DNA of 27,080 nt, from IMG/VR virus record IMGVR_UViG_3300010151_002808, positions 1 through 27,080 of that record, one strand, 5' to 3'. Of this stretch, positions 100-24,654 are shown one piece after another (the first letter of the stretch is position 1; every line of letters begins with the position of its first letter). The notes below the pieces were generated by a model. The model saw only the letters and a list, made by a program, of their open reading frames with translations, ran no database searches and had not been told where the DNA came from. The position numbers were made by a program, and so were the translations under genes. The DNA comes from a virus.

Positions 100-885
100 T
101 TAAAGGTCTTTTTTTAATTTTCTATAGTCATTAACAGAAACCTGCCCATTGGCAAATGCTGTAGATAAGTCTCCTAAGTTCCTAAATGCACGCTTTGGTT
201 GCGTTGGAGCACCCTGCGTGGTAGGTGGAACCTTATTTACAGCAGGTTCTGTAGTAACTGATTTATTTTTTCCAGCTATATCTTTTAGGTTTTGATTAGC
301 AAGTTTAACTGATTGACTAAATGTCATAGTGCTATTCCAGCCTTTCCAAACATTGGCATCATTCCTGACATCAACGCTTAAACCTAAAGTTGAAGCTGTA
401 TCCCTAACAACAGAATCTAAATCTTCAAGATTTTCAGGAGTAAGGTTAGAGCCTTGGCTCTGAGGGTTGTCCATGTTTTCCAACAATCGGTCAAGTTTCT
501 CCTCTTTTGCAACTCTTTCTCTATCTGCAATCTTTTGGTTCAATATATCTTTTTGATCCTCATCTAATATAGATGAAAAGTCATTCATAAATTCTGATAT
601 TTGAGCCTTAGCTCCGTCCTGAATTTCTTGAACCTTTTGGTTAGTGTACTGCTGAGCACGACCTTGTGCGTTATCAAACGCACTCTTTCGTTCTTCCAGC
701 ACCTTATCCAGGTCATCTTTTGTTAGGTATGAAGGTTGATTAGCTTCTTCTGCCGTAGCTTCTACGTTTTTTGCAGCCTCTGCAACCTGGTCTACCTGTT
801 GTTCAGTAGTTACTTCTTCAACAGGTTGTTCTTCAGAAACCTTAGTTTCCTCAGTTTGTTCAATATTATCTTTTTCTGTGGTCAT
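100..885 (-). CDS. Scaffold-like head assembly protein
   Basis: A 261-aa protein with the build of a phage scaffold: an acidic Glu/Gln/Thr-rich, probably disordered N-terminus (about residues 1-50), a charged helical and coiled-coil-prone middle (about 55-150), and a short basic C-terminus ending in RKLKKDL. Known scaffolds direct capsid protein assembly around the portal, often bind capsid through a basic C-terminal helix, and are later removed. The gene sits immediately before the putative capsid start and is preceded by a GGGAGG ribosome site about 7 nt before its ATG. There is no enzyme motif and no visible protease domain. Family assignment is by architecture and position, not by a recognised signature. 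Confidence 0.65.
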   Translation of the reverse strand: MTTEKDNIEQTEETKVSEEQPVEEVTTEQQVDQVAEAAKNVEATAEEANQPSYLTKDDLDKVLEERKSAFDNAQGRAQQYTNQKVQEIQDGAKAQISEFMNDFSSILDEDQKDILNQKIADRERVAKEEKLDRLLENMDNPQSQGSNLTPENLEDLDSVVRDTASTLGLSVDVRNDANVWKGWNSTMTFSQSVKLANQNLKDIAGKNKSVTTEPAVNKVPPTTQGAPTQPKRAFRNLGDLSTAFANGQVSVNDYRKLKKDL

Positions 886-932: not shown

Positions 933-3900
933 TTATTGTCCTGCAACCCCATGTTGAGGTAAATACTCTTCAAATGGGAATGCTGACTTCAGTTCATCTT
1001 CTCTTCCTGCATTAAAAGGGCTCATTAAAGATTCAGCAAAGCCCCACCTATACAAGAAGGCATCAAGTGCTGGATTTACCTTTCTTAACTCTACTCGTAT
1101 TCTCTCCCATTCTCTTAGTGCCTGTTTAAATCCTGGGTTGTTATCTTCAATTAATTTTTGTTTTCTATCATTATATTTAGATAGATACCATTCTCTGTAT
1201 ACAGTATCGAATTGCCCTTGATATCTAGTTTGGAATACTTCTTTTCTTGTGTCTTCCCAGTACTGTGGAAAATATTCATCTCTTCTTCTGTAGAACTCTT
1301 GATTAAACCCAGTGGTATCCCATCTTGCACCATATAACTTATCTTTAGCATATGCTTCATATTCAGGTATTGCCCATTTTTCTCTCCAACCATCAAGTTC
1401 TAACTCTCTAGCCTCAAAATCAAACATATATCCTAAGTCCCATTTATCATCAAACATTATTTCAGCGTATTCATCGGCAGCAAAGTCTTCAACTTTTTCA
1501 AACTCTCCCATTTTTCCTTTTATTGCCTGAAAATATGCATCAACATCTGGGTACTTTTCTTGTATTGCCTGCACTTCATATCTATATTGTGATCTAGCTT
1601 TTTGTTCTTCAAGTACATATTGCTCAATGCTAATCATATTTGACCTAAGCCTACTCTCAGATTCCCTGACTTCTTCTAAGTACTCTTCTCTTGCATCATC
1701 CACATCATTGTCTTTTAGCTCAAAGTTTCTATCTAAACTTGATCCTCCTACAACTTTCCTTTTTTCAAATATTTCTTCTTCTAATTGCCTTAACCTCTGA
1801 ACATTTGGATCAGCTTCTAGATCAGGTGCCGAGTTTATTATTCTTTTCTGAACATCATTCATATTTCTCCAGTTAACATTAAAGTACTGTTGAGCCAGCA
1901 TGTCCCTAACTTCTTTTCTTTTTTCGTACTCACTAATAGGACTTGTTCTAAGTCCAACAAATTCAGTTCCTCCACTAAGTAAATTCCAGTCTCCATTTTG
2001 AAGGATAGATTCTAGCCAGAATGGCATAGACTTCAGTCCTAACTTTCGGAACCAATCTCCTCTAAATGGTTTCATCTCTTCTCCTAGGAAGTTAGCTCCC
2101 ATAGCTGTATCCCACATAGTAGAACCTACTGGAGAGCTTCTTGATCTTATCCAATATGCAAGTTGGTTATTGTGTAAATAATCTCTTATACCCTGATCGT
2201 CAAACCCAGCTTTACCTCTACCTGCACCAGTTAGTAATAAAGGTGAATCAAGAATATCTCCTCTAAATGCAGGGTCATCAGCTAATTTGCCAAACAATCT
2301 GGCCAAAGATACCCACGAAGAACCAAACCCAACATTTATGCCACCTATTTCTGTAGATAAAAATTTACCACTTGTTGGGTCTAGGTGAATATAGTCTTCT
2401 ATGTTTTTGCCTGCTGCTTTAGCTGACATTGCAGCAAAACCTACATGTGTTGCTATACCAGCACCCATCATAGCTCTTATTGCACTTCTGGCTTCATCAC
2501 CTTGCAAATTACCTTTTAAAACAGAACCTACTAATCCTATAGTGGATCTTGTATATGCTGGAGAGAAAAATACAACAGATCTTTCTATATTAGACTGCCT
2601 TGCACTTATACCAGCTCTCCTGCTTGAAAATGCTCCAGTCATGCCATTTATATGTTCTCCTAATTGCCTGAGTTGTCTTTCCATAACATCTGCTGGAATG
2701 TTTTTATTTAAGATTGCTTTTTCTCCAGCTTCCCATAACCCCTCTCTTATAATATCTCCGTATGCTTCAAAGCTGGATTGGAATCCATCTAATACATTCG
2801 AACCCTTTTCTATAAAATACCTAGCTCGTTTAAATCCAGGTACTGAATCTTTTGCTGCAGTATTAGTAAGGCGACCTTCAGTTAATAATTTTGTGAAAGC
2901 ATTTTTTTGACCTCTAACTCTAAAATAGTCTTGTCCTGCACTACTAATCAATACTCCATAATTTGCCATTCGACTAAAGTTTTCATGTTTTTTTGCAATT
3001 AATTCTGCGTGTATTCTTGGAGCATCAGAACCTGCTGTGATAAGCCTAAACATATTTACTGAAGCTTTTGACCAAGTTTTTAAATACGGATTATTTGGTC
3101 CTTGAGTAGGTATAGCAGCTATACCTTTCATTAGTGTAGGCAAACCATGTAAGAAACCTGTACCTGCGTCAAATCCTGTTTGAACTACTCTAAGGTAGTC
3201 ATTTACATCGCTGGTAGTTTTAAGGAACCTGTCGAAACTATTTTCTTCATTTATATTTAAAACTCTTTCTATGTGTTTAGCAGTTTTATCATTAAAAAAT
3301 AGATCTCTATCTCGCAATGCTTTAACTTCATTCTTTATATCGCCTCTTTGATCTCTAACCGCTCTAAATCTAAGATTTTCTTCCCCATAAAGATTAGAAA
3401 GTTTTCTGGTTTTATCATTTAATACGAAATCTTTTTTATCAATATATTGTTTTACAAACTCTGTATAGTTTCTAGTCTCTTTTTCATACCTAACATCTAA
3501 GTCATCTAAAAAGTCTTTAATAATTCTGTTTACATCTTCATGAGCACTTGGATCATTGCTTTTAAGTATATCCTTAATTTTATTGTATTCTTTGTTCCAG
3601 TTTTTACTGGTTCCTTGTATTCCCGCCAATAGATCTGTTTTGCTCTCTCTTAATGCCTTATTTAAATCATCAACTATATCGTTTCCAAGTGATGATGCTA
3701 CAGTAGTGAAATTTTTAATTGATGCTAGTTCGCTTTGCTTTTCTCTAAATGTTTTAGCCCTATCTCTATACTCATTTAATTTCTTTGTATTTATTTTTGC
3801 TGCTTTTAGTTGCTTATGAGATATATTCTCTAATCTTCTAACTACTCCCTCATCTGCAACTTCTTTGTATACAGACTTTAAAAATTCCTCAAGCATTATT

Positions 3901-6900
3901 GTTTCATCTTGCTGATAAATTAAACCTCTTGCTTCATCTTCTATACCATCTAAAACATTATCAAAAACTCTATTTCGCTTTATAGTTGTTGTTCTTAGTG
4001 GCCCACCTGCTATTCTTGATACATCTTGAGCATCTACTAAACCTTGAACTTCATTTTGTGCTTCAGCCATATGATGAACATAGTTTCCAGTGGTATTGTC
4101 AAATAAGTTATCTACATTAATGCCCTTTCTTTTCAATAAGTGAGCACCCTCATCATAAACATTATAATATCGTTTTAGATAGTTATTTACCTCTGCTGGC
4201 AAATTAAAGTATTGTTCATACATTCTAATTGGTTTGCCCATAGGTCCCTGCCAATCTACTACCATTCCTGCCATATCTAAGAAATCCGTAATGTTCATAA
4301 CTATCTGGTCTTTTTTTGGAGCTACTAAATCAGTGTTGTTTTTTACAAGATCGTTAATCATATCATTTGTCAGTCCACCCATTTTCCTAATATTGTCCCA
4401 CTCAAACTTCTTGCCCGTGTACTTAGGATCAGACATAAAGTTGTCTCCAAAATGATGAACTCTAGTTACTCCATCATTGTCTATCCATGAAAAAGCATCT
4501 GCTTTTTTACCTTTGTTATACATAGGAGAATCAGGATTGTCGTATGCTCTATCTATTTCTCTCTTAAAATTCCTCATTAATGCATTAGATACAGATGGGT
4601 CATCATTGATAATATCATCAATACTGCCGCCAAGCTTTTTCTTTGATTTTGTAGATATAACTAACTTATTATTGTCTAATCCTCTTTGGGTTGCCTTTAA
4701 TATGCTAAATGCTGCTTTAGCATTTGTTATTGGAGCTCTTGCTTCATCTCCTATCATAAGTGAGCCTTTAGAAACCCCCCTTTGTGGCGGAAACATAACA
4801 TTTCTAACTTGATTTAAATTTGCAAATGAATCTGTTTGTTTATACTGAATATTTCCAACATATCCACCAATAGTTCCTGGCGGATCCATAGAGCTTTTCA
4901 TGCCAACTATTCCTGATGCTTCTCCTGGAGACAAACCCTCTTCTGTTAATCTTTCACGAGCAACATTTGTTCTCTTTTGGTTTAGATAAGCCTGTGCTTC
5001 TACAAGATTTTCCCTTTCAGTTTGGGTTAATTTTTGTAACTGCCCAGGGTTTGCAAAATGTTGATATTCATGTTCTAAAACAAAGTTTTCAAAATCTTCA
5101 TATGTAGGAAATGTTTCTTTATCTGCCCTTACTCTTTTCCAAATTGCTTCACCAACTTCAAGATCTCTACCTGCATATTCAAATCCAGGAGTCATTCCTT
5201 GAGCTGTTTCAGCTAATCCTTGTTCATAATCTTGTCTAATTTTCTTTCTATCTATTATAATTTGATGCACTCTTTGATCTGGTTGTGCTGCTCCTGTTGG
5301 CCCTGTAAATCCAGGCTTAAGTTCTTTGGGTGTGTGTGAAATCCATGCCACTGCACCCGCTGGTGCATATGGATTTTTTGCTGACAGTAATTCAGGATCA
5401 TCAACTACTGGAATGTTTTTGTAAAATTTTTGTTGAGTAGGAGTATTTGCAATATCTTCAAATCTTACCCCTTTGTCATTTAACTTTGAAACATTATAAT
5501 TTTTTATAGGATCATATACTTGCTGTCGGATTAAAGGGTTTTCTTCGTACACAGCAAAAATATCTGTTAAAAACTGTGCATATGCGTTATTAGCTTCAAT
5601 TTCAGCAGTTTCTAGTTCTATTAGTTTGTTTTGATATTCTTTAGTAGGTCTTCCTTTTGCTTTTTTTGCTTGCTTTAAATCAAGCATTTCTTGTTCTAGT
5701 TTTCCCCATCGCTGAACTTTATCATTAAATCCTCCCTCCATATTTAAGTATTTATTGGTAAATTCTTTAAAGGTTTTTATTTCGCTTAAACTATGTGCTT
5801 CAAAACCACCTGTTTTTTTTGCCAACTTAAATGCTTCGTTAGCTGGACTAAAATCAACTACATAAGTATCAACTTTATACGCCTGCCCAGAATTATATTT
5901 AATTTTATGTCCTTTGCCTGCGTGAATTCCTGTTTCTAAAGTAGATGGGCGATTGGTCATGGTTTCCCAGGCACTCATATTATCTGCACTAGCATTTAAC
6001 TTGCTAACTACGCCTGCTATTTCTTTATCATCTAGTCCTGATCTTTCTGTTACTTCTTGTGCAAACTTTTCTAAAGTCCTATTTCTTCCTTTGCTTTCTA
6101 AGATACCTCCCCCATAAATTACACCATTAACATCATATATACTCCATTTTCCCGTAAGCGGCTCAAAACCTAAAAACTTTTCTCCAGTAAGTATTCTGCC
6201 TTTTCCGTATCCAAAAACGCTTTCCATAGCTGCATTTCTTTCATTTGAAATTACTTTTTCAGTACCAATAGGTATAGTAATTAAAGCTTGTTCTTCATTC
6301 CTTAGAACACCATCCCCTAATTTAACCTGTCTTGTTGTGTTTACAAAAGGTATATTATGTTTATCAAGTATATCTTTTAGATTGTCACCTTTTTTCCTAA
6401 ATTTAGATACTATGCTCGTAACAAGGCTGTCTCCTTTTACGATATCATCATTAAAAGCAAGTAAAGCTCTGCCTTCTCTAGTTGAAGCTAAAGTATATGC
6501 GGGGTTAAGTATTTTATGTGTATTTTTTAACGCAGTCATAAAATATCTGCCAGGATTATATCTACTTAATCCCTTTACACGATCACTGTTTGCGTATCTT
6601 AAGAAATCACTAATTAGTCCTTCATTGTTTACACCTAAAGCTTCTAATGTAGAGTCATAATTTGAAGGATCAAAAACTTCTGTATTAGGAATAGTGGTAT
6701 TTTTAACATCATCTAAGTTAATGAGTCTTCCACTTTTGGCTCTAATCCTAATGTCTTGACCTCTATATATTGATTTAGCCCACTTTTTATAATCATCAGT
6801 TTTTACAGTATTTTTATCTAATGCCTTAAAAAAGTCTTTTAAGTTTTTTTGCGTTAGGTCTAGATTTCTAAGCTCATTATCAATCCCCTTATATTCTTTT

Positions 6901-7607
6901 AAGAGTTCTTTTCCGCCTTTTCTTACTTGTTTTACACCAGGTAATGCACTTGCCATGGTAGATATACCTTTACCAATAGGTCTTGCTATTGCACCAAGTG
7001 GTATGGCCATAGTTGCCCATCCAATAGGATCACCAATAAGTTCTGCAGCACCTTTAACTCCTAAATTAAATCCAAATCCTTCTCCTTTTTCTTTTCCAAT
7101 TCTTACTGTTGCAAATTCAGCTTGTCTCCATGCTTCACCAGCACTCATACCTCTAGATCTATTTCTTTGAACTTGTTGACTAAAAGGAGTTGATATATTT
7201 CCCATCCACCATTCAGTAGTTTTTTGCCAACCCTCAAGACCAGCCATTGCTGCTTTACCTAAGTGCTTAAATGGATTTAAACTTATACCATCATCATTAG
7301 GGAGTTCTACGCCTGGTTGCATTTGTACAGGTTTTGATACGTTCTGGTTTGCTTCATGTAACCCAAAACCATGAACTCCGCTTAATAATCCTTTATAGAC
7401 TCTATTTTGTGCTGATTGAGTTCTTTCTATTTCCTGCTTTATAGCTCTAGTTTCAGGTGTATCAAAAAACTGACCTTGCCTTTTAGATTGCTCTAATATG
7501 ATTTTCAGTCTTCGTACTTTTTCTTCTTCTTTTTCTTTATCTCTTGTTTTATTTTGCCAAGCTGTAGTACTTTCCCATGGCGACCTATCTCCAAATGGTG
7601 TTCTCAT
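933..7607 (-). CDS. Giant virion-associated protein with HExxH zincin-like motif
   Basis: A 2224-aa single ORF, by far the largest gene here, starting 7 nt after the upstream stop with AGGTG before the ATG. The N-terminus (1-75) is charged and helical. Residues about 178-228 form a Gly/Ala-rich hydrophobic stretch, and a second one lies around 1680-1735. Residues 846-850 read HEYQH, a HExxH zinc-peptidase signature, with Glu870 placed 20 residues after the second His as in gluzin-type peptidases. Long charged helical segments follow (about 1230-1450), and the last 350 residues are rich in Trp, Tyr, Glu and Arg. Very large proteins near portal genes in short-tailed phages are often internal proteins ejected with DNA, some with enzymatic domains for crossing the envelope; large polyvalent proteins are the alternative. 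Which applies is inference. Confidence 0.6.
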   Translation of the reverse strand: MRTPFGDRSPWESTTAWQNKTRDKEKEEEKVRRLKIILEQSKRQGQFFDTPETRAIKQEIERTQSAQNRVYKGLLSGVHGFGLHEANQNVSKPVQMQPGVELPNDDGISLNPFKHLGKAAMAGLEGWQKTTEWWMGNISTPFSQQVQRNRSRGMSAGEAWRQAEFATVRIGKEKGEGFGFNLGVKGAAELIGDPIGWATMAIPLGAIARPIGKGISTMASALPGVKQVRKGGKELLKEYKGIDNELRNLDLTQKNLKDFFKALDKNTVKTDDYKKWAKSIYRGQDIRIRAKSGRLINLDDVKNTTIPNTEVFDPSNYDSTLEALGVNNEGLISDFLRYANSDRVKGLSRYNPGRYFMTALKNTHKILNPAYTLASTREGRALLAFNDDIVKGDSLVTSIVSKFRKKGDNLKDILDKHNIPFVNTTRQVKLGDGVLRNEEQALITIPIGTEKVISNERNAAMESVFGYGKGRILTGEKFLGFEPLTGKWSIYDVNGVIYGGGILESKGRNRTLEKFAQEVTERSGLDDKEIAGVVSKLNASADNMSAWETMTNRPSTLETGIHAGKGHKIKYNSGQAYKVDTYVVDFSPANEAFKLAKKTGGFEAHSLSEIKTFKEFTNKYLNMEGGFNDKVQRWGKLEQEMLDLKQAKKAKGRPTKEYQNKLIELETAEIEANNAYAQFLTDIFAVYEENPLIRQQVYDPIKNYNVSKLNDKGVRFEDIANTPTQQKFYKNIPVVDDPELLSAKNPYAPAGAVAWISHTPKELKPGFTGPTGAAQPDQRVHQIIIDRKKIRQDYEQGLAETAQGMTPGFEYAGRDLEVGEAIWKRVRADKETFPTYEDFENFVLEHEYQHFANPGQLQKLTQTERENLVEAQAYLNQKRTNVARERLTEEGLSPGEASGIVGMKSSMDPPGTIGGYVGNIQYKQTDSFANLNQVRNVMFPPQRGVSKGSLMIGDEARAPITNAKAAFSILKATQRGLDNNKLVISTKSKKKLGGSIDDIINDDPSVSNALMRNFKREIDRAYDNPDSPMYNKGKKADAFSWIDNDGVTRVHHFGDNFMSDPKYTGKKFEWDNIRKMGGLTNDMINDLVKNNTDLVAPKKDQIVMNITDFLDMAGMVVDWQGPMGKPIRMYEQYFNLPAEVNNYLKRYYNVYDEGAHLLKRKGINVDNLFDNTTGNYVHHMAEAQNEVQGLVDAQDVSRIAGGPLRTTTIKRNRVFDNVLDGIEDEARGLIYQQDETIMLEEFLKSVYKEVADEGVVRRLENISHKQLKAAKINTKKLNEYRDRAKTFREKQSELASIKNFTTVASSLGNDIVDDLNKALRESKTDLLAGIQGTSKNWNKEYNKIKDILKSNDPSAHEDVNRIIKDFLDDLDVRYEKETRNYTEFVKQYIDKKDFVLNDKTRKLSNLYGEENLRFRAVRDQRGDIKNEVKALRDRDLFFNDKTAKHIERVLNINEENSFDRFLKTTSDVNDYLRVVQTGFDAGTGFLHGLPTLMKGIAAIPTQGPNNPYLKTWSKASVNMFRLITAGSDAPRIHAELIAKKHENFSRMANYGVLISSAGQDYFRVRGQKNAFTKLLTEGRLTNTAAKDSVPGFKRARYFIEKGSNVLDGFQSSFEAYGDIIREGLWEAGEKAILNKNIPADVMERQLRQLGEHINGMTGAFSSRRAGISARQSNIERSVVFFSPAYTRSTIGLVGSVLKGNLQGDEARSAIRAMMGAGIATHVGFAAMSAKAAGKNIEDYIHLDPTSGKFLSTEIGGINVGFGSSWVSLARLFGKLADDPAFRGDILDSPLLLTGAGRGKAGFDDQGIRDYLHNNQLAYWIRSRSSPVGSTMWDTAMGANFLGEEMKPFRGDWFRKLGLKSMPFWLESILQNGDWNLLSGGTEFVGLRTSPISEYEKRKEVRDMLAQQYFNVNWRNMNDVQKRIINSAPDLEADPNVQRLRQLEEEIFEKRKVVGGSSLDRNFELKDNDVDDAREEYLEEVRESESRLRSNMISIEQYVLEEQKARSQYRYEVQAIQEKYPDVDAYFQAIKGKMGEFEKVEDFAADEYAEIMFDDKWDLGYMFDFEARELELDGWREKWAIPEYEAYAKDKLYGARWDTTGFNQEFYRRRDEYFPQYWEDTRKEVFQTRYQGQFDTVYREWYLSKYNDRKQKLIEDNNPGFKQALREWERIRVELRKVNPALDAFLYRWGFAESLMSPFNAGREDELKSAFPFEEYLPQHGVAGQ

Positions 7608-7614
7608 AAATCAC

Positions 7615-10600
7615 CTACGCTATCATTGCTGATAATTGTCCAAATGGGCCAGTCTCCTGGAATGCTTGAGGAGTGACATCTTGTGCCATTCTTATAAATG
7701 TTTGAGGATCAATACCTAGGGCAGACAATGCACCTTGAAGGTATTCTAATCTGCCTGGCGTCATGTCTGTTAACTGCCCCATAGTAGGAACTGATTCAAA
7801 TGGCATTTCTCCAGATAATATAGTTACAAACGCACCAAGTGCCTGTGGATTAGAAAGAAGAGCCAACAAAGAGTTCATTTCTGATGATCTTGTTTCAGAC
7901 TGTATTTCAGCCAATCTTTCCTGTGCTGTTAATCCGCCTCTAGCAAGCAATGCTTGTAAGTTTGAATTTTCTTCTTCTGATAATCCACCTCTTTGTAACT
8001 CAAGTTGAGCAGCTTGAAGTTCTTGTGGATTAGCATAACCACCCAAAACTCTAAGTGTTTCAAGATCCATCTGTGCACCTTGAGCACCTGTTGCCTGCTG
8101 ACCTTCAAATGTTTGAATGTCTTCTCTGACAAGATTCTGATAAGTTTGTTCAGCTGTTCTAAGGCTTGCCTGATATGTTTCTTCCGCTTCTCTTAAGTCA
8201 TCTTCTCTGTCTTGCTGAGCTGTAAGTAACTGGTCAGACCTTTCGTATTGAGCTTGAATATCTGCAAGCTGTTGGGTTCTAAGAGTTGCTGCATCCGCTA
8301 AAGCCTGAGTTCTGGCTGTTGTGGCTGCTTGAGCTTGTTCTGTTCTGATAGTTTGTCGTTCTGTAGCAAGAAGCACTTCTGCTTTTGCTGCTTCTGCGAT
8401 CTCATATTCGTATTTTGCCTTTTCGTATTCTATCTGTGCGGTTTGCAATGTTTGTGCAGACCCAGTATTTATTCCTGCAACTAATTGAGCATCTGTGCCA
8501 GTTAATTGAGCTAATGCTACATTATAATCATTTCTTATTTTTTCTATATCTTTAAGGTCTGTAAGTTCAGAAGCTCGTAATGCTGTAGCATCATCACTGT
8601 AAATTAACATAGCTATAGTTTCAGCAGAAGTATTATTAGCATTAGCTATTGTTGTTTGAGCTTCAGTTTGCATCTCAATTACATCAAGTTGAGTAAGATT
8701 AGATGCTCCAGCTATTTTTTCTGCTGACATGTTGTTAATTGTAGAAACCTGATAAGCACTTTCTTTTTGTGTTTGTGCTACTTCTAGTTGAGCTTCACTT
8801 TGTAATCTAGCAATAAATTCTTTACTTGAATTTGTGGCAACAGCTATGTTTTCTTGTATTTCACCTTTAATTCTTTCTACATCTCTTTGGGTCATGCCTG
8901 TAATTTCAGCTACTTCAGCAGCACTTCTAGTATTTATTAGTGCTACCTGCTGAGAAGATAATCCGTTGATTTGTGCAACATCTCTAGATGCATTTGCACT
9001 AACTTCTGCTACATATTCTCTAGACTGATTAGTTGCCTGTGCAATCATTTCAGAACTTCTTAATTGAGAATTATTAATTCTTTCACTGGAAGCCATTTGC
9101 ATTTGGTCACTAGCAAATCCTATTTGAGATCTGTAATTGGCACTTTCCTGTTCCATTCCAATTTGATCTAATCTTCCTTGAATTTCTGCTACAGGAATAT
9201 CAATTTTTGTTGCTTGATCCATTCCTTCTAATCTTTCTAGCTGTGCTTGTTCAAATGGGCTAGTCCTAGCTTGTGCATCATAAAATTGTCTTAATAATAC
9301 TGCTGGCATTGAATTACCTGTAGCATCAGACATTCCTGCTTCAACTATATTTTTTGGTAAAACTGCTTGGCCTCCACCTTGAATTGTTTTTATTGCCTGC
9401 ATTGCTTCATTAAACATTCCTGGAGTTATTTGTCTTTGTGTTTGAGAAACTAAAGACTGATCTTCAGTTGCAGCAGTTTCAATTTCTTGTTCGTCTCTTG
9501 TTAGCTCAGAATACCTTTCTTCTGCCATAACTCTATCTCTATAGTCTGGTTGTCCTGTTACAGGATTTATTTGAGCTCCTGCCATTGAGAGATCACTTCC
9601 TTTATTCTCTATAAGTTGGTTTAATAAATCAATATCATCAGAGTAATATTGTTCTGGTGTTATACCAACTTTGCTAAGTTCTTGTAATAAATAGTCCTGT
9701 TGAAAAGTTGGCTGACCTCTACCTGCTCTTGATAAGCCTTCACCAACCCAATTTAGCCCCGTTCTCCATGGGTTTAATTGAACTAAGCTTCCTAGTTTAT
9801 CCCTAGCTTCTCGTAATTCATTATCATACTGTTCCTGTTGTTCATAAGTCATAGTGTCATAATATCCTGCTTTATCTCTACCTGGATTTGCTGCTCGATT
9901 TTGTCTGTCCCGTTCTTGGAGGTTCGCAATATCTTCTTCACTGTAATCTTGTTCAATTCCCCAATCAGCCCCACCTCCTGCAGGCGGCCCGAACATTGGG
10001 AACATATCGTCTATACCTTGGCCAAGAGGCATCCATGACCTAGGGTCCATATTAGGCTGACTTGAAACCAGTTTGTAAGGATCCATATAGCTGGTATCTC
10101 CTTGAACTACATTTTGACCACCCTGGTACTGCTGCGGTTGGAATGGTATTTGAGCATCATATGAAGTAGGTAATTGAAAACCTGCCAAATCTGCATTAAC
10201 TGATCTTGCAGTAGAAGGAGGAGGAGCAAGTCTATTCATACCTTGCATCATATTTGCAAATGTTGGTTGCTGCCCTAATTCAGCACTAAAAGGAGTCGGG
10301 TTACCTCTCTGCCTATTAACATCAATATTGCCTGTGTTAGCTAAAAACGGCATTGCATATGGATTTTGTTGTCCATAATATTGGTTTGCATAATTATAGT
10401 TTGAAAAATATGGGTTATTAGGACTTGAAGTGTTAGTTCTCATCATTTCTTCAAAGCTAGGATCAACACCTACAACACTAATTTTTCTTGAAGGCGATGC
10501 AGACGGATACATCTCATTATATCTGTTTAAGGCATCTTGCTCATCTAATCCATAAGAAGTTGTGTATTGAGTCCTACTTCCTATTTGTCTTGGATTACCT

Positions 10601-10677
10601 TGTTCATCAAGATCTTGTTCATCAAATTGAGGATCTTCAATTAATATTTGCCAAGGTTTTGGATTTTGCATTGTCAT
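7615..10677 (-). CDS. Large coiled-coil structural protein with 11-residue repeats
   Basis: A 1020-aa protein. Residues 1-260 are rich in Asn, Gln, Pro, Tyr and Gly and look disordered. Residues 530-694 are fifteen consecutive 11-residue units with Ile or Val at position 5 in every unit and often Ala at position 6. Residues 776-852 hold a second run of about seven 11-residue units rich in Ala, Gln, Arg and Glu. The last ~120 residues look globular. Such hendecad repeats form long helices or right-handed coiled coils. The gene overlaps the upstream 76-aa gene by 4 nt and uses an AGGAGG site in that gene's end. Lying between portal and the giant gene, it is probably a virion (internal or tail) component; no family was recognised. 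Confidence 0.6.
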   Translation of the reverse strand: MTMQNPKPWQILIEDPQFDEQDLDEQGNPRQIGSRTQYTTSYGLDEQDALNRYNEMYPSASPSRKISVVGVDPSFEEMMRTNTSSPNNPYFSNYNYANQYYGQQNPYAMPFLANTGNIDVNRQRGNPTPFSAELGQQPTFANMMQGMNRLAPPPSTARSVNADLAGFQLPTSYDAQIPFQPQQYQGGQNVVQGDTSYMDPYKLVSSQPNMDPRSWMPLGQGIDDMFPMFGPPAGGGADWGIEQDYSEEDIANLQERDRQNRAANPGRDKAGYYDTMTYEQQEQYDNELREARDKLGSLVQLNPWRTGLNWVGEGLSRAGRGQPTFQQDYLLQELSKVGITPEQYYSDDIDLLNQLIENKGSDLSMAGAQINPVTGQPDYRDRVMAEERYSELTRDEQEIETAATEDQSLVSQTQRQITPGMFNEAMQAIKTIQGGGQAVLPKNIVEAGMSDATGNSMPAVLLRQFYDAQARTSPFEQAQLERLEGMDQATKIDIPVAEIQGRLDQIGMEQESANYRSQIGFASDQMQMASSERINNSQLRSSEMIAQATNQSREYVAEVSANASRDVAQINGLSSQQVALINTRSAAEVAEITGMTQRDVERIKGEIQENIAVATNSSKEFIARLQSEAQLEVAQTQKESAYQVSTINNMSAEKIAGASNLTQLDVIEMQTEAQTTIANANNTSAETIAMLIYSDDATALRASELTDLKDIEKIRNDYNVALAQLTGTDAQLVAGINTGSAQTLQTAQIEYEKAKYEYEIAEAAKAEVLLATERQTIRTEQAQAATTARTQALADAATLRTQQLADIQAQYERSDQLLTAQQDREDDLREAEETYQASLRTAEQTYQNLVREDIQTFEGQQATGAQGAQMDLETLRVLGGYANPQELQAAQLELQRGGLSEEENSNLQALLARGGLTAQERLAEIQSETRSSEMNSLLALLSNPQALGAFVTILSGEMPFESVPTMGQLTDMTPGRLEYLQGALSALGIDPQTFIRMAQDVTPQAFQETGPFGQLSAMIA
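8122..8352 (-). repeat. Second run of about seven 11-residue protein repeats
   Basis: Codes for residues 776-852 of the 1020-aa protein. In-phase 11-mers include TARTQALADAA, TLRTQQLADIQ, AEETYQASLRT and AEQTYQNLVRE. It is more polar and charged than the first run and lacks the fixed Ile/Val at position 5, so it is probably a solvent-exposed helix or heteromeric coiled coil. Confidence 0.6.
8596..9090 (-). repeat. 15 tandem 11-residue (hendecad) protein repeats
   Basis: Codes for residues 530-694 of the 1020-aa protein. Units include SREYVAEVSAN, ASRDVAQINGL, SSQQVALINTR, SAAEVAEITGM and SKEFIARLQSE. Position 5 is Ile or Val in 15 of 15 units with no insertion or deletion. The units have diverged, so this is a protein-level repeat and not a recent DNA duplication. 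Confidence 0.85.
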
Positions 10678-10904
10678 AATGGCCTCCTAAATGGTGTGTC
10701 TGGCTCACCTACATGATAAGGTCTATTGGGGTCTCTTGTTTTTTTAACTGGTCTTGTTGAATTAGGATCAGGAACACTTAATCCACCCATGCTATCGTTA
10801 ATATTTTTAAAAGCTGTTTCGATCATTTCGAAATATCTTACAAAGCCAGCTTCTATTGGCTTTAATCCCTTTAATGTCTTTTTTGTATTATCTGTGTACG
10901 CCAT
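10674..10904 (-). CDS. Small hypothetical protein between portal and coiled-coil gene
   Basis: A 76-aa protein that I do not recognise. The first half is predicted helical, with a segment around residues 14-36 rich in Phe, Ile, Met and Lys. The second half is rich in Pro, Arg and Asp and probably extended. The start is one base after the portal stop, with AGGA inside the end of the portal gene as ribosome site. Its stop overlaps the next start by 4 nt. Tight coupling on both sides in a structural operon suggests a virion assembly role, for example a minor head protein, but nothing in the sequence proves it. Confidence 0.7.
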   Translation of the reverse strand: MAYTDNTKKTLKGLKPIEAGFVRYFEMIETAFKNINDSMGGLSVPDPNSTRPVKKTRDPNRPYHVGEPDTPFRRPL

Positions 10905-10905
10905 T

Positions 10906-12825
10906 TTATCCTAACCCTGGTGGCATATCTCCACCCATAGTTGGTTGAGGTCCTCTTCTAGGACCTGCAATTTGTGCTCCAATTTGATTCATTTCATCTA
11001 CGCTTCCAGGCATTACTGGTCTTACTGGTCCACTACCGACTCCTGCCTGGTTTCCTTGTGCAAAGTTACCAGCATTAGGTAATTGCATAGCACCTTGCGT
11101 ATTCATTATATTCTGAGCAATTTCTGCAGGATCAAAGCCAGCTTCTGCTCCACCTTGAGCTGCCTGAACTGCTTGCTGTAATATTGGAAGGCTTTGTGCA
11201 GCCAACATGCTAAAGGCCTGTTGTATCTGTGGAAGGTTAAAGAAGTCTTCTGCGATTCTGTTACCAACAACCTCTAGTGGGTTTGACACGCCTGCCTTGC
11301 GTAGGGCAGTAGTCCAGTCTACAAATCCAGTTCTCCATGTATCTCTCCACAATGACAATTTTCGTTCTTGTTCTTCAGGACTTGTAGATGTTAAACGAAC
11401 TGTGGAAACATAATGGCCTCTAATATCAGCAGGTTTGATCTTGGCGTCAATAGAACCCGCCTCTGTGTTACCAAATACGGTAACTGTATCTCCTATTACA
11501 TTTTCTACAATCCTAAGCACAATTTCGTTTGCTTCCTGTAATCCACGTTCAGTTGCATCAACTACAGCACCGAAGTTTAAACTTGCGATACCTGCTAATA
11601 CTGCAGTGTGATATCCAGATGCAGCTCCTTGAGGCCTTTCACCTCTAGCTACTGCTGGAACTGTATTTGCCTCGATTGCTCTTTCCAATGTACCCATTGC
11701 CTGAAGAATACTTTGAGGGGCTTCACTTACTGTTTGTGGCTCTACCTCAACATTTGGCGGAACATAGTTTCTAGCACCAGGTTCCTGTGAAAATTCCTGC
11801 ATGACTTCTTCCGTCATACCTCTTGGTCCTTTGAAATTCAATGAAGACCAAGCGTTCCTAGATACAATATCTAAGTATTGTGATGCTAGTCTTGATTCTG
11901 CTCTAATCATTCCAAAGTTACCAGCACCTATGCCTCTGTATAAATGTTCAGGTTTACTTCCGATTGTTTTTATTCCTGTTTGAGGATGGAATATGATCCA
12001 TGGGATTCTTCCATATGCATGACGCCTAGGCTCCATTGCCCACACACCATTCGCTAAATAACCTACATGCGTAGATGTCCATACTTCTGCGAAATCACAT
12101 TTTCCATCTTTAGTTTCACCTTGGAAATCAGGGAAATGAGCCATTATCCATTCAGAATCAATCTCAGTATTACGTATAATCCATCGTGGGTGTGTACTTG
12201 CTAAATCCCATACACATTCTTGTGGGTTTACTACTTCTGAAATAATTGGAAACTTAAACTTTCTATTTTCTGTAATCTCTTTGACTTGTCTTTCGTATTC
12301 AGACATATCGCCACCTTCTTCAGGTGGTTCAGGCATTTCTCCCCATTGATGTCCAGCAAACTCAAACTTAACCAAAGATACTCCATATAATCCTTGATGT
12401 TTTACAATTTCTCTTTTTACAGGAGTGTTTTGTTCAAGCATGTGATGTGCACCATTTAAAAACTTTTCAAGTAATTCTGCTCTAGCTGTAGCTCTTGGGC
12501 CAGGTGGAGGCACATCAATATCCATAAACCTAGGGGAGGCGTGGGCTACCAATGTATCAATGATGGAATGGAATGTTCCTAAGTTTACCTTAGTTCCGCC
12601 TAGAGGGACGGAAAAATCGAACTCCCCTAGATAAAATTCATCAGCTTCTGAGCAATTATCGTAAAATTTTGCAAAAAAATCTGCAGCACCACCTTTAGAT
12701 AATTGTGTTTTTACCCACGCTTCACTAAGCGTAGGTTCGTTTAAAGGTGGCGAAGATAGCAAATCGACAGTTTCTTCATGGGCCGATTCTGCTTCGCCTG
12801 TATTTACTCTATAGCTGTTAACCAT
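10906..12825 (-). CDS. Portal protein (head-tail connector)
   Basis: A 639-aa protein directly downstream of terL. Its length, Trp- and Pro-rich mixed alpha/beta middle (residues about 70-330), long helical part, and disordered Gln/Gly/Pro-rich C-terminus (from about 545) match large portal proteins of short-tailed phages. Portals form a dodecameric ring at one capsid vertex; terminase docks there and DNA passes through it. I see no discrete motif, so the call rests on size, composition and position between terL and head genes. The ATG follows the terL stop by a single base and has no clear Shine-Dalgarno, so translation probably depends on termination-reinitiation from terL. Confidence 0.75.
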   Translation of the reverse strand: MVNSYRVNTGEAESAHEETVDLLSSPPLNEPTLSEAWVKTQLSKGGAADFFAKFYDNCSEADEFYLGEFDFSVPLGGTKVNLGTFHSIIDTLVAHASPRFMDIDVPPPGPRATARAELLEKFLNGAHHMLEQNTPVKREIVKHQGLYGVSLVKFEFAGHQWGEMPEPPEEGGDMSEYERQVKEITENRKFKFPIISEVVNPQECVWDLASTHPRWIIRNTEIDSEWIMAHFPDFQGETKDGKCDFAEVWTSTHVGYLANGVWAMEPRRHAYGRIPWIIFHPQTGIKTIGSKPEHLYRGIGAGNFGMIRAESRLASQYLDIVSRNAWSSLNFKGPRGMTEEVMQEFSQEPGARNYVPPNVEVEPQTVSEAPQSILQAMGTLERAIEANTVPAVARGERPQGAASGYHTAVLAGIASLNFGAVVDATERGLQEANEIVLRIVENVIGDTVTVFGNTEAGSIDAKIKPADIRGHYVSTVRLTSTSPEEQERKLSLWRDTWRTGFVDWTTALRKAGVSNPLEVVGNRIAEDFFNLPQIQQAFSMLAAQSLPILQQAVQAAQGGAEAGFDPAEIAQNIMNTQGAMQLPNAGNFAQGNQAGVGSGPVRPVMPGSVDEMNQIGAQIAGPRRGPQPTMGGDMPPGLG

Positions 12826-12826
12826 A

Positions 12827-14389
12827 TCAGTCTAATGCGTCCATTAATATAGATTCTTGCTCTGTGCTAATCTCTACCACTTCTCGTAGTTCTTTTAGCT
12901 GTTTTGCTTTTCTTTGTCTTTTCATGCGGGCTATTCGCCCTTCTGTATAAGATACACCATTTTGAGTCAATGGTGCAACAGTTTTAATTGTAAAGACTGG
13001 TTCATATCCTTCTTCCATAGCTTCTGGAGGATCACAGGCCATTAGTGCTAGCACCTCGGCGTCCACCCAGTCATCATGCTGTGTGTTAGGGTGGGTAAAA
13101 CTATAGGTCAAGCCATTTTGTTTTACCTCAATCGAGTCTAGTTCGTTCTGCAATTTAGTCCATTCTGGAGGAAAAGTCGTTGTTCCATTTTGCAGAGCTA
13201 CAGCATAATTAAGGAATAGCTGATACTTGGTTTGAGGAGTGAACTTCTTGCCAATCACAGGGACGCCGAGATTTAACAATTCGTCAAATAATACATCACC
13301 ACCCATACCTGATGAGTCCATCATTACTGACTCACAACCCCATTTTTTAATCTCAGACACCAAGGTTTCCTTCTGTAATACCCAGTCAGTTTTAAGCATT
13401 TCATAAGAATAAACTGATTCTCTGGTAATTCTGTTCTTAATTATCAATACAGTAGGGTCAACCTGTTTTCCAAGGTCAAGACCTGCTACGTACTTATGTC
13501 CGTCAGTGGGGCGAGACAAGGAAGCACCTACAGCAGCATCTTCAATCTTTTTAAAGAATCCACCACCTACATCTGGCTGTTTAGCTAAAACCATCCTTTC
13601 CCATATCCACTCAGTAGTAGTTTCTTTTTGTTTATATATATTTTCTTTTTGCTGGTCAGTTAGATACATATTGTCAAAACTTGTAGCTGTGACTGCAAGA
13701 TTTTGGAGGGAAGGGTTGTTTTCTGCATATTTAAATTGCCTAGAAAACCAGTGTGATCTTGAAATAGGGGGGATACCTTCTGCAAATATTCTACCCATAC
13801 GACCAGGTGACTCAGTTACCCATTCCACCTTGTCCCACGCTATTTGTTTGACGTCCTGAGATTCTGCAATATGCAAAAAATCAAGACCCACAGTTTGTAG
13901 TGTTTCAGGGTTATCTGCGGATCGTAACTCCCAAAGCACACTCTTGCGGACAGTATCGGATGAGAAAACCCCGTTGGGCTGCCTCACTTCTAATTCTACA
14001 TAATATTCATCTTCATGCCAACATGATCCACGACCACCTGCCCTTGAATAATCTTTCCACATGTATCTAGGTATATAGGCTTTCATCTCATTCCACACCT
14101 GTCTCATCTGTGCCTTGGTCGGGGCAACAGTCCATATGTGAATATCAGGGACTAGGGTATCTGTTACATCATTGCCATTAACAATAAATTTGGTTTTGCT
14201 TGCTTCAAGTATAGTACTTATGGCCTCTTGAATAGCTGCTCTTCCCTTGCCTGCTCTTCGTCCTGCCCACACCCATTTACGCTTGGCTTGGTTTCTGTGT
14301 AAAGCATCTTGCCATGGAGATGGCGTATACTTAGGGACAGGTCTAACTAGAGCCTGTTTCCTTGGTTTCAGCGTTCTCTTTCTTGCCAT
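12827..14389 (-). CDS. terL: Terminase large subunit (packaging ATPase and nuclease)
   Basis: A 520-aa TerL, the motor that cuts concatemeric DNA and pumps it through the portal. The N-terminal ATPase has a Walker A-like loop at residues 43-49 (GRRAGKG) and a Walker B-like segment near 169-177 (LDFLHIAES, Glu176). The C-terminal RNase H-like nuclease shows three acidic clusters: Asp305 in GLDLGKQVD, Asp358 in MMDSSG, and Asp440/Asp443 in HDDWVDA. Length is normal for the family. The start is fixed by GGAGG 3 to 4 nt before the ATG, and the gene overlaps the end of the terS-like gene by 47 nt. The Walker A loop ends in Gly instead of the usual Ser/Thr, and the Walker B Asp before Glu is Ala. 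Confidence 0.93.
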   Translation of the reverse strand: MARKRTLKPRKQALVRPVPKYTPSPWQDALHRNQAKRKWVWAGRRAGKGRAAIQEAISTILEASKTKFIVNGNDVTDTLVPDIHIWTVAPTKAQMRQVWNEMKAYIPRYMWKDYSRAGGRGSCWHEDEYYVELEVRQPNGVFSSDTVRKSVLWELRSADNPETLQTVGLDFLHIAESQDVKQIAWDKVEWVTESPGRMGRIFAEGIPPISRSHWFSRQFKYAENNPSLQNLAVTATSFDNMYLTDQQKENIYKQKETTTEWIWERMVLAKQPDVGGGFFKKIEDAAVGASLSRPTDGHKYVAGLDLGKQVDPTVLIIKNRITRESVYSYEMLKTDWVLQKETLVSEIKKWGCESVMMDSSGMGGDVLFDELLNLGVPVIGKKFTPQTKYQLFLNYAVALQNGTTTFPPEWTKLQNELDSIEVKQNGLTYSFTHPNTQHDDWVDAEVLALMACDPPEAMEEGYEPVFTIKTVAPLTQNGVSYTEGRIARMKRQRKAKQLKELREVVEISTEQESILMDALD

Positions 14390-14996
14390 TTTCCTCCTCT
14401 GGATTTACATCCCTGACAAATGGTTTTAACCCTTCTTCTACTTGCTCCACCACAGACTCAGAATCTATTTTTTGTTCGTATTTGTCAAGTGCATGCTGTT
14501 TTTGACGCCTATATCTTTCGGTATCATACTCAATATTTGCGAACCATCCAGCAGAATCGACAATCTTGTGGTTAATTGGTGCTTGTCCTGCATTAGTTTC
14601 AAGGTTAATTATAGCTGAAACACTCATTTCGTTTGCGTACTGCTCAACCAGGTTAGGGTGTTTTAGATACTCACCAGTACTTTCACACTTAGGGTAGTGG
14701 CCATTGTTTTTTACAAAATCAACAATCTTTGCAAAGCTAGGCCTCTTGTTGACACGGATAAGCAAGTCGGCAGCATCCATACCCACTTCCTCTGCAATAG
14801 ACTCTAAGTCTCCATGAGTAGGCAACAATATCAATACCTTTCTAAACAACCTAGGATATGACTCCCAATGAGGTAATGCATCAAGCACACGCTTTCTTAA
14901 ACCATCAGGTGTTAGGCCTGACAATCTTTTTGATGTCTTACCCTGTGGTACCAATCTCTTTGGTTTCTGTCTATATGGATTATTGTTATCAGCCAT
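14343..14996 (-). CDS. Candidate terminase small subunit (HTH protein)
   Basis: A 217-aa protein just upstream of terL. Residues about 55-93 look like a helix-turn-helix (HGDLESIAEEVGMDAADLL, then a second helix), a hydrophobic helical middle follows, and the last 45 residues are highly charged and probably bind partners. Small terminases recognise the packaging site with an N-terminal HTH, oligomerise, and recruit TerL through the C-terminus. The size and order fit. The gene overlaps its upstream neighbour by 8 nt and terL by 47 nt, consistent with coupled expression. It could instead be another HTH regulator. Confidence 0.65.
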   Translation of the reverse strand: MADNNNPYRQKPKRLVPQGKTSKRLSGLTPDGLRKRVLDALPHWESYPRLFRKVLILLPTHGDLESIAEEVGMDAADLLIRVNKRPSFAKIVDFVKNNGHYPKCESTGEYLKHPNLVEQYANEMSVSAIINLETNAGQAPINHKIVDSAGWFANIEYDTERYRRQKQHALDKYEQKIDSESVVEQVEEGLKPFVRDVNPEEENGKKENAETKETGSS

Positions 14997-15696
14997 TTAC
15001 CATCTCTTTAAGTTCTAAATATTTTTTTGCATTTTTAAACAACAATACTGCGTTTTTTACGCTTATGCCTTCAGCCGACACAGAAGAGTTTGCTGAAAAA
15101 TAATTATCGCCGACTTCAATAATATCTCCGAACCAATCTTTTATTCTTGTTTTTCTTTTTTCTGCAAAGTGCATATGACCTGCACTAAACATTTCAGATA
15201 AAAACCAGCCGATTTCAAAACAATGTTTTCTTGCAAACTCTAAATCTTCTTCTTTGTTTTCGTAGGAATCAAAAACACGGTCTTTCTCCCAAAGGTAATC
15301 ATTGAACTTTGCTTTGTTGTTTTCGTATTCTTGTATTCGTTTTTGGAAGTTACCTAATTCAACCATTGAGTCAATTAAGTAAGCTTGGCTAACATAGAGT
15401 GGTAGTTTGCTTATTGCATGTTTAACATTATCGTAAAAACCAAACCATTCACCATTGCCTCTGTGTTCTTCAAAGTGTTTGTGCCAGTGCGACTCACTCC
15501 CAAACATGTAGCCTAAAAGATATATTTTGTCAGGGTTGCCTGTTTGACAACTTTTTAATCTACTTACAACAGCATCTTCATTGTCCCTAGACTTTATGTC
15601 TTGGTCTTTAGCTGTAACCTTGCCAATCTTTACGTGATGATTGCTGTAAAGAAAGTAAACTATTTCATTTATATCCGTAGACTCCATGTAGGGCAT
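14989..15696 (-). CDS. GIY-YIG superfamily protein of the MUG113/T5orf172 type
   Basis: A 235-aa protein whose first ~85 residues carry the T5orf172/MUG113 pattern: VYFL (13-16), VKIGK (22-26), RLKSCQTGNP (46-55), Glu68, then a His-rich stretch to GEWF (82-85). GIY-YIG enzymes cut DNA with a Tyr/Arg/Glu centre; Tyr14, Arg46 and Glu68 are the candidates, while the second Tyr of the name motif is replaced by Lys. The remaining 150 residues are helical and unrecognised. It is the first gene of the minus-strand operon, directly before terS. It could be a free-standing homing nuclease, or help packaging as HNH proteins near terminases do; both are inference. The nearest AGGAG lies 17 nt before the first ATG, so the start is uncertain. 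Confidence 0.8.
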   Translation of the reverse strand: MPYMESTDINEIVYFLYSNHHVKIGKVTAKDQDIKSRDNEDAVVSRLKSCQTGNPDKIYLLGYMFGSESHWHKHFEEHRGNGEWFGFYDNVKHAISKLPLYVSQAYLIDSMVELGNFQKRIQEYENNKAKFNDYLWEKDRVFDSYENKEEDLEFARKHCFEIGWFLSEMFSAGHMHFAEKRKTRIKDWFGDIIEVGDNYFSANSSVSAEGISVKNAVLLFKNAKKYLELKEMVNG

Positions 15697-20174: not shown

Positions 20175-20990
20175 ATGTCACATATTAAATTCAATCCTAC
20201 ACAGGAAAGAAAACACGTAAATAGGTTTACACAGGAAGGTGAAGACCTAATCAAATTCATAGGAATGGCTAAACCATATCCTGTAATACTTATGGGGCCA
20301 GCTGGTTGTGGAAAAACACAAGCTGTTGAGCAATACATTAAGAGAAATGACTTACCAGTGGAACACATTGCTTGTCACCCAGGTCTTGAGGCAAACGACC
20401 TTACAGGTGGATACTCACCAAAAGTTGGTAGTGAAGGACAAGCGTTATTAAGCTGGAATGATGGCCCGTACACAATCGCAGCTAAAGAAGGCAAGGTGAT
20501 GCTACTTGATGAGGTTACAAGACTAAACCAGCAACACATTGGTAAAATAATGAGTTCGCAGGACGAAACAAGATTGTTAACTAACCCAGAATCTGGCGAA
20601 GAAACAATAAAATGTCACCCAGACTTTCATGTAATCATGACAGCTAACCCACCAGCTATGGGTTACAACACAGTAAATCTTGATGAAGCTCTTAAATCTA
20701 GAGCAATGATTTACAAATACATTGACAAGCCGTTGTGTGATGAAGAAGCAACCTTAAGTGACATACTTGGTGGCGACAAAGAGTACGTAAAAGCCTTTAT
20801 AAACTGGGCTGAGGACTTAAGATCAGACGCAAGTACAGCAATATCCACAAGAGACTTATGTTACCTAGCTAAAATGGTTGGTCGTGGCTTTACAGCTATG
20901 CAAGCTATTGAGCTTAACTACAAAGACAAGGTTTCAATGGATAAAAGAGGGGTTGTATTAACTGGTGCATCAGCACACTTTGAGAACTAG
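20175..20990 (+). CDS. MoxR-type AAA+ ATPase
   Basis: A 271-aa single-domain AAA+ ATPase. Walker A is GPAGCGKT (41-48), Walker B is VMLLDE (108-113), sensor 1 is Asn158 in IMTANP, and the arginine finger is probably Arg176 in ALKSRA. Between them, GLEANDLTGGYSP (70-82) matches the MoxR-type LEGxDLxG signature. MoxR ATPases (RavA, CbbQ, NorQ, CobS) form hexamers that remodel a target or help insert a metal, with a VWA protein as adaptor. Such a VWA gene follows 9 bp downstream. AGGAG lies 7 nt before the ATG. Phage copies are often labelled CobS; nothing here proves cobalt chelation. Confidence 0.92.
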   Translation: MSHIKFNPTQERKHVNRFTQEGEDLIKFIGMAKPYPVILMGPAGCGKTQAVEQYIKRNDLPVEHIACHPGLEANDLTGGYSPKVGSEGQALLSWNDGPYTIAAKEGKVMLLDEVTRLNQQHIGKIMSSQDETRLLTNPESGEETIKCHPDFHVIMTANPPAMGYNTVNLDEALKSRAMIYKYIDKPLCDEEATLSDILGGDKEYVKAFINWAEDLRSDASTAISTRDLCYLAKMVGRGFTAMQAIELNYKDKVSMDKRGVVLTGASAHFEN

Positions 20991-20999
20991 GAGGGTTTC

Positions 21000-24199: not shown

Positions 24200-24654
24200 A
24201 CGAATCAGATATAACAGAAATTCTTTGGTATAAAGCTCTTGCAAAAAAAGCAACAGCTAAAGCTAAAGAGTTAGAAGCTGACATTCGCAAAGACTTTAAT
24301 GAGATTGGTCTTGACGCTACAGAAGTCGGCCCGTACAAACTACAACTCAGTCATCAGTCAGTTGACTGGGACGCTGATATTATAGATACTATTAAAACTA
24401 TCAATGGTGTCAGCGATGATGATAAAGAAAAGTTATTCATGCCTGTTAAACGTAAAGCTAATGGTGTTCATCTGAACTCTATTGGTAAAAAGTACGGCAA
24501 AACAGTTCAGGATAGAATAACAGAAGCTAGGCAAGAGTCTGGTGAAAGCTTTAAAATTACTACTGACAGAATGGAAAACAATATCATCGACAAAAGTGTT
24601 GACGAATTTTTAGAGTCAGCTAATGATGATGAAGAACAGGGGGACAACCTATGA
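24196..24654 (+). CDS. Hypothetical protein upstream of the RecT-like gene
   Basis: A 152-aa protein. Residues 8-35 form an Ala/Lys-rich helix, a beta-like part follows (GPYKLQLSHQSVDWD, 45-59), then a Lys/Asp-rich helical region and an acidic tail. It is not recognised. Genes beside phage annealing proteins often encode an exonuclease or a Gam-like nuclease inhibitor. No nuclease motif is visible; the helix-first layout is loosely compatible with Gam but is not evidence for it. It is linked by 4-nt ATGA overlaps to both neighbours, so the three proteins are probably made in fixed ratio. Confidence 0.75.
   Translation: MNESDITEILWYKALAKKATAKAKELEADIRKDFNEIGLDATEVGPYKLQLSHQSVDWDADIIDTIKTINGVSDDDKEKLFMPVKRKANGVHLNSIGKKYGKTVQDRITEARQESGESFKITTDRMENNIIDKSVDEFLESANDDEEQGDNL

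Follow-up and report, generated by a model that had tools for sequence, protein, structure and literature searches.

Microvirus pilot-type hendecads in a putative ejection protein of a marine tailed phage

To our knowledge, envelope bridging has been worked out in detail in very few short-tailed phages, and the H tube of phiX174 has so far appeared to be an oddity of ssDNA phages. Residues 151–271 of phiX174 H form a decameric tube, 170 Å long, whose lining consists chiefly of Asn, Gln, and Arg, and the hendecads of the protein read QKELTKMQLDN, QKEIAEMQNET, and QKEIAGIQSAT (PMC7354561). The pilot proteins of rodent-gut microviruses (phrog_5158; bajarodmic, Sigmofec, and Dipodfec viruses) contain about 9–11 in-phase hendecads of the form S/T-x-x-x-V-A-x-I-x-G-x. 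Hendecads of another kind are found in tape measures, where pattern 1 consists of seven or more [FW] residues at spacing 11 and about 5% of tape measures fit pattern 1 or 2 (PMC3271669).

Here we analyzed a 27,080-base virus record (the window), in which a 1020-aa protein carries an array of hendecads matching the rodent-gut pilots at nearly every position. These pilots are proteins of 365–414 aa (three examined) that have an N-terminal domain of their own and are encoded by ssDNA viruses of about 5 kb, whereas the window protein lies in a dsDNA tailed-phage operon and has different N- and C-terminal domains. The H proteins of phiX174, G4, and alpha3 (4JPN, 4JPP) share with the array three hendecads of the same pattern with similar hydrophobic and charged faces; unlike the array, they have only these three, followed by heptads, in a decamer that passes ssDNA, and their pairwise similarity to it is weak. 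The ejection proteins T7 gp15/gp16, P22 gp7/16/20, and those of N4 (PMC8954989) resemble the window protein in being large, largely helical by prediction, and located beside a giant protein, and a long tail is seemingly absent from these phages and from the window virus alike. By contrast, T7 gp14–16, P22 gp7/16/20, and the N4 proteins have no sequence or profile similarity to the window protein (z ≤ 1.8), and T7 gp15 is not hendecad-based when judged by the 11-column profile described below. Siphovirus tape measures (PMC3271669) share pattern 1 repeats with two relatives of the window protein (L018 and L028); they differ from the window protein itself in having Phe/Trp instead of I/V-Ala, in their gene slot, and in being accompanied by recognized tail-tube genes.

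Gene order around the hendecad protein

The hendecad protein is encoded in the order TerL, portal, 76-aa protein, hendecad protein, giant protein, scaffold, and capsid, the capsid gene being seen in relatives.

12827..14389, minus strand: terminase large subunit (phrog_2, E 2e-20; TerL matches in named phages)
10906..12825, minus strand: portal protein, 639 aa (phrog_156 portal match in three relatives, best E 1.1e-4)
10674..10904, minus strand: ORF for a 76-aa protein between the portal and the hendecad protein
7615..10677, minus strand: ORF for the 1020-aa hendecad protein, a putative internal (ejected) virion protein with syntenic relatives in marine viral contigs
933..7607, minus strand: 2224-aa giant protein, a putative partner ejection protein, immediately downstream in all relatives whose flanks are long enough
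100..885, minus strand: probable scaffold protein, 261 aa, by position and sequence; directly before the capsid gene in relatives, in the slot of annotated scaffolds

The original prediction had assigned the array to a virion operon, and this assignment holds, with TerL recognized by PHROG, the portal by PHROG in three relatives, the capsid by homology to named phages, and the scaffold by position and sequence. In the relatives, the next gene after the probable scaffold encodes a capsid protein of 299 aa, which is ~30% identical to the capsids of Pelagibacter phages HTVC026P, HTVC111P, HTVC112P, and HTVC202P. In HTVC026P and DSL-LC06, which are annotated and have the same capsid type, a tape-measure gene follows the capsid gene. 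In a 42-kb relative (L032/G001), the capsid gene is followed by genes for small proteins and for proteins of 450 and 822 aa, and a fibre gene lies at the opposite end of the contig; because no tape-measure or tail-tube gene was recognized after this capsid gene, we infer a short-tailed particle. The 822-aa protein, encoded in the tail region of the relatives, has a carbohydrate-binding domain of the CBM_4_9 type (L036, 5319–7787; E 2.9e-7).

No family match was found in Pfam or PHROGs for the 2224-aa giant protein. It contains one HExxH motif, a motif seen in zinc peptidases, as HEYQH (window 5058–5072), which reads HEWQH in the relative L003, and in L014 the gene is split into parts encoding 1728 aa and 214 aa. 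Elsewhere in the window, the operon starts with a gene for a 235-aa protein with a MUG113 domain match (14989–15696; E 3.9e-5), just upstream of the genes for a 217-aa protein and TerL. A NorQ/CobS-like AAA ATPase (phrog_249, labelled porphyrin biosynthesis) is immediately followed by a 647-aa protein without family match (20175–22943), and a RecT-like single-strand annealing protein is encoded at 24651–25637 (phrog_561, E 1.8e-23).

The hendecad array and its conservation

The whole 1020-aa protein had no match in Pfam, PHROGs, PDB sequences, or INPHARED named phages, and a phmmer search of PDB with a 262-aa region (8470–9255) returned chance matches only. The following parts of the protein were distinguished.

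10462..10677, minus strand: N-terminal part, residues 1–72, modelled as mixed strand and helix with low to moderate confidence and kept among close relatives
8596..9090, minus strand: hendecad array, residues 530–694, 15 units of 11
8833..9021, minus strand: best-conserved stretch of the array, residues 553–615, which holds the invariant Thr593-Gly594 and is modelled by AlphaFold2 as short helices like sigma region 4 or a helix-turn-helix
8110..8490, minus strand: predicted long helix, residues 730–856 (pLDDT mostly 62–88), which contains a second run at 8122–8352
8107..8175, minus strand: three aromatics at spacing 11 in the sequence (Y835, Y846, and F857)
7618..7995, minus strand: conserved C-terminal domain, residues 895–1020, 43–85% identical across relatives and in part recognizable in L035

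The 15 units follow one another without a gap, and position 5 is I or V in all of them (8 V, 7 I). When the whole protein was shuffled 2000 times, at most 10 of 15 positions at spacing 11 were I or V, and the count at the other spacings tested (7 to 22) did not exceed 8 of 15. The hydrophobicity Fourier spectrum of the array peaked at 3.67 residues (11/3) with a power of 10.0, a peak reached by none of 2000 shuffles; the power was 1.3 at 18/5 and 1.2 at 7/2, which excludes a heptad reading. The hendecad repeat is thus real and not a product of chance. The original prediction of 15 in-phase, indel-free units with I or V at position 5 proved exact in coordinates and count, and the comparison of 11/3 with 7/2 proposed along with it came out clearly for 11/3. 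It had also named a second 11-residue run at 8122–8352, of which less was borne out: the run does end in the three aromatics 11 residues apart, but its hydrophobic power is 5.1 at 7/2 versus 1.0 at 11/3 (p 0.06), which is heptad-like and leaves an 11/3 helix unsupported there.

To describe the units, position 5 was taken as a, and residue composition was tallied over 117 units from eight proteins. In the window array, a is I/V, b is Ala, d is I/A/L, e is N/Q/S/T, and h is S/T/A. Across the 117 units, a is I/L/V/M in 97% and b is Ala in 82%; d is I/L/V/M in 54% and Ala in 20%, e is N/Q in 52% and S/T in 35%, f is Gly in 28% and N/Q in 24%, and h is S/T in 55% and Ala in 20%. Positions c, g, j, and k hold most of the charges. 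The e and i positions together had 15 acids where 42.1 were expected, a count as low being reached in none of 5000 permutations, and the window array has no acid at either position; the placement of acids in the hendecads is non-random. On an 11/3 wheel, the centres of the residue classes fall at −41 degrees for hydrophobic residues, −155 for charge, 80 for amides, and 101 for Ala/Gly, and those of the phiX174 H hendecads at −29, −147, 40, and 154 degrees, so that the hydrophobic and charged faces agree to within about 12 degrees. Such an arrangement of four faces would fit a barrel, in a putative orientation, whose lining is polar and uncharged and whose exterior is charged, with one I/V flank and one small-residue flank.

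Relatives were collected by IMG/VR scans with the hendecad protein, its portal, and its C-terminal domain, revealing 22 further proteins in the same slot, with identities of about 17% to 57% in those compared; a search with the C-terminal domain turned up no relative among 84,980 bacterial and archaeal genomes. The phase of the array is kept in 22 of the 23 proteins, down to about 20% identity. An 11-column profile built from two sequences, those of the window and L003, found 12–21 in-phase units in all other relatives except L035 (z 19–150). In six close relatives, the array aligned without indel, and orthologous units were 80% identical versus 24% for paralogous units, so the units had diverged from one another before the viruses separated. 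The only invariant residues in an alignment of 18 sequences were Thr593-Gly594, another four positions of the array, and a few outside it. The exception, L035, encodes in the same slot a 723-aa protein (12081–14252) with part of the C-terminal domain and without the hendecad array, indicating that the array is a separable module.

Similarity to DNA pilot proteins

Three independent lines of comparison linked the array to Microviridae DNA pilot proteins. For the first, we used tblastn against 50,697 phage records. All ten matches of the window array at E ≤ 1 were Microviridae DNA pilot proteins (best 4e-4). The array of L032 matched 28 records, apparently all microviruses by name (best 4e-7 over 82% of the query), and among the matches listed all 25 were annotated as DNA pilot protein; the array of L059 matched five records, comprising three pilot proteins and two unannotated contigs. 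The reversed window array found no match in the phage records, and the arrays of L020 and L022 found no pilot match there. An unverified and unannotated 5069-bp metagenomic contig from wastewater, labelled Listeria phage LM 4-11-1 (L092), has an ORF (1409–1753) that weakly matches the L059 array, and the best ORF of this contig scored z 3.7. The L032 array, but not the whole L032 protein, matched phrog_5158 (E 9.8e-5). In PHROGs v4 this family carries the label 'unknown function', yet three annotated microvirus DNA pilot proteins all have it as their top-scoring family (E 1e-71 to 1e-73).

A 33-aa triplet profile was run by hmmsearch against 177,635 PDB sequences and matched the phiX174 H tube (4jpn, E 1.1e-4; 4jpp, 8.6e-4) over profile positions 1–32 and 2–32, together with a designed CAP repeat (8vd6, E 1.3e-5) and a helix-turn-helix repressor (8bny, E 2.9e-4); reversed and position-permuted profiles reached E values of only 0.48 and 0.22 at best. 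The window/L003 profile picked out residues 157–186 of phiX174 H at z 11.2, with z 8.3 for G4 H, 4.4 for alpha3 H, and 24–36 for three gut-microvirus pilots, and gave z ≤ 1.8 for 32 other reference proteins, including virion proteins of T7 (gp14–16), P22, N4, and TP901-1. For the three pilots, the 12 best ungapped alignments of each fell into a single phase modulo 11, and ungapped scores reached 139 versus at most 45 for the reversed array; some units are nearly identical (TSRDVARINGL in a pilot, ASRDVAQINGL in the window). In 26 of 27 records compared, the length of the matched stretch of the pilot protein differed by whole units (0, 1, 2, or 3). The pairwise score to phiX174 H itself was 49, no better than that of the reversed array (50), and the pilot-type hendecad pattern was absent from phiMH2K VP2 and the SpV4 ORFs.

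With respect to membership in the pilot family, the window protein contains the central pilot-type array; the whole protein has no PHROG or Pfam pilot match, and the pilot N-terminal domain is absent. Its genome is not a small ssDNA genome with a jelly-roll capsid, as TerL, portal, and tailed-phage capsid protein belong to the same operon. Judged by sequence, the window protein as a whole is not a member of the pilot, tape-measure, or known ejection-protein families. The similarity of its array to the pilots may reflect either descent or convergence.

Structure models, alternative readings, and a possible DNA conduit

AlphaFold2 predictions gave a pTM of 0.28 for the full protein and 0.54 for the array alone. 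In the full-length model, the helix is broken at several unit boundaries, near residues 551, 573, 584, 595, 617, 661, and 683, where Asn/Gly and then Ser/Thr stand; the array-alone model has the same breaks, with pLDDT about 72–92 over residues 535–634 and below 50 beyond about residue 645. The invariant Thr593-Gly594 fits a turn more readily than an uninterrupted helix. The model of residues 553–615 resembles sigma region 4 (4g6d; rmsd 2.1–2.2 over 52–56 residues) at Z 4.6, a value commonplace for the tool. Foldseek searches of both models against PDB, and of the first also against BFVD, gave nothing at E ≤ 0.001, and VIA-align gave Z ≤ 7.9, mostly to designed helical repeats and in the range usual for unrelated helical models; the phiX174 H tube was absent from the structure-match lists, which is uninformative either way. 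Among helix-turn-helix families, the window array matched only wHTH-PRTase_assc (E 0.37), and the matches of other arrays were weak and below the curated cut-off. The extended helical tube of the original prediction is thus a hypothesis: the modelled breaks do not fit one unbroken rod, and a single rigid rod can be proposed only tentatively. These are monomer predictions, to which a rod formed only in the oligomer would be invisible, and ejection proteins are described as undergoing strong conformational change when ejected (PMC8954989); broken and rod states may therefore both exist.

The breaks raise the alternative that the array folds as short helices in a compact or solenoid-like stack, serving as a protein- or DNA-binding spacer in the head, for example on the portal, and forming no tube. 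Each unit would comprise an 8-residue helix with a Ser/Thr N-cap and an I-A core, and a turn at Asn/Gly, yielding successive helix-turn-helix corners. The breaks recurring in two AlphaFold2 runs, the invariant Thr593-Gly594, the resemblance to sigma region 4, and the profile matches to 8bny and 8vd6 agree with such a stack, and an adjacent pair of units reads like a helix-turn-helix motif. However, the same models cannot see an oligomer-only rod and match at ordinary Z values, and the array-alone one drops in confidence beyond about residue 645; the phiX174 H hendecads have N/S/T/D/A at these positions and are yet helical in the crystal (PMC7354561), and tblastn retrieved pilot proteins instead of the abundant phage regulators. 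We consider the stack unlikely. Also unlikely is a functionally meaningless convergence of low-complexity coiled-coil sequence, in which the array would be a generic coiled-coil spacer. The units are short and repetitive with a limited composition, the score to phiX174 H does not exceed that of the reversed array, and two relatives lack a pilot match, all as convergence would have it; against it, reversed and position-permuted controls of the same composition and period find nothing, the 32 other proteins score low, and the matches are confined to one functional class despite microvirus genomes of only about 5 kb.

A tape-measure-like or scaffold-core rod, acting as a ruler or internal core in head or tail assembly, is suggested by two relatives that fit the published pattern of seven [FW] at spacing 11 (PMC3271669) and by a weak PHROG tape-measure match of L032 (E 0.076). 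In L018, ten consecutive Phe stand 11 residues apart (residues 852–951), in phase with its I/V array and corresponding to Y835, Y846, and F857 of the window protein, and L028 has six Phe and one Trp at this spacing (residues 454–520), likewise in phase; one protein family thus contains hendecads of both the pilot type and the tape-measure type. The window protein itself, with three aromatics only, falls outside the [FW] pattern, its gene precedes scaffold and capsid instead of lying between tail-tube and distal-tail genes, no tail-tube gene was recognized, and a separate probable scaffold is present, making such a rod quite improbable. Least probable is an amphipathic helix like the 11/3 helices of synuclein and apolipoprotein, which would insert into the envelope after ejection. 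The periodicity and a weak hydrophobic face rich in Ser/Thr/Ala would be compatible with it, but the array has a net charge of −8 and a mean hydrophobicity of 0.22, and a Heliquest-type discriminant stays below 0.68 in every 18-residue window (mean −0.08). The charge and the discriminant place the array outside the lipid-binding range. Of the two devices originally envisaged for an ejected protein, the membrane-lying helix is accordingly disfavoured, and the tube gains from the sequence matches to pilots and phiX174 H.

We hold with moderate confidence that the 1020-aa protein is an internal (ejection) virion protein of a short-tailed marine dsDNA phage, whose array works like pilot-protein hendecads. 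An ejection protein is favoured by the position of the gene, which lies between portal and scaffold/capsid and next to that of a giant protein, and since the closest relatives of the array are phiX174-type DNA-injection tube proteins, the protein probably helps to build a DNA-entry channel. In the proposed mechanism, several copies would pack next to one another through the I/V-rich flank (a, d, h) and the Ala/Gly flank (b, f), forming a helical conduit whose lining would be uncharged Asn/Gln/Ser/Thr (e, i) and whose outer surface would carry the charges (c, g, j, k). The conduit would assemble at ejection and assist DNA passage through the cell envelope; its likely partner is the 2224-aa protein encoded next to it. 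Fully straight, the 165 residues of the array would span about 250 Å, compared with 170 Å from 121 residues in the phiX174 H tube. The analysis itself demonstrates the periodicity and its conservation, the specific pilot-protein similarity, the place in the operon, and the non-random acids; virion presence, ejection, oligomerization, lumen orientation, and DNA passage are all steps that we infer. A bolder proposal, which we regard as doubtful, is that a tube-forming pilot module is common to ssDNA Microviridae and marine tailed dsDNA phages through descent or horizontal transfer, and was lengthened in the latter to about 15–21 units and combined with tape-measure-type Phe/Trp hendecads to serve a dsDNA ejectosome.

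By sequence comparison, a protein family previously without database annotation gains a candidate function. A longer array of the phiX174 H type of unit in a tailed phage would suggest one building rule for DNA conduits in unrelated viruses: an 11-residue unit whose core is I/V-Ala and whose lining is Gln/Asn/Ser/Thr, the length of the conduit being set by the number of units. If this is true, purified arrays should form tubes, and the number of units should track envelope thickness or the length of the partner protein.
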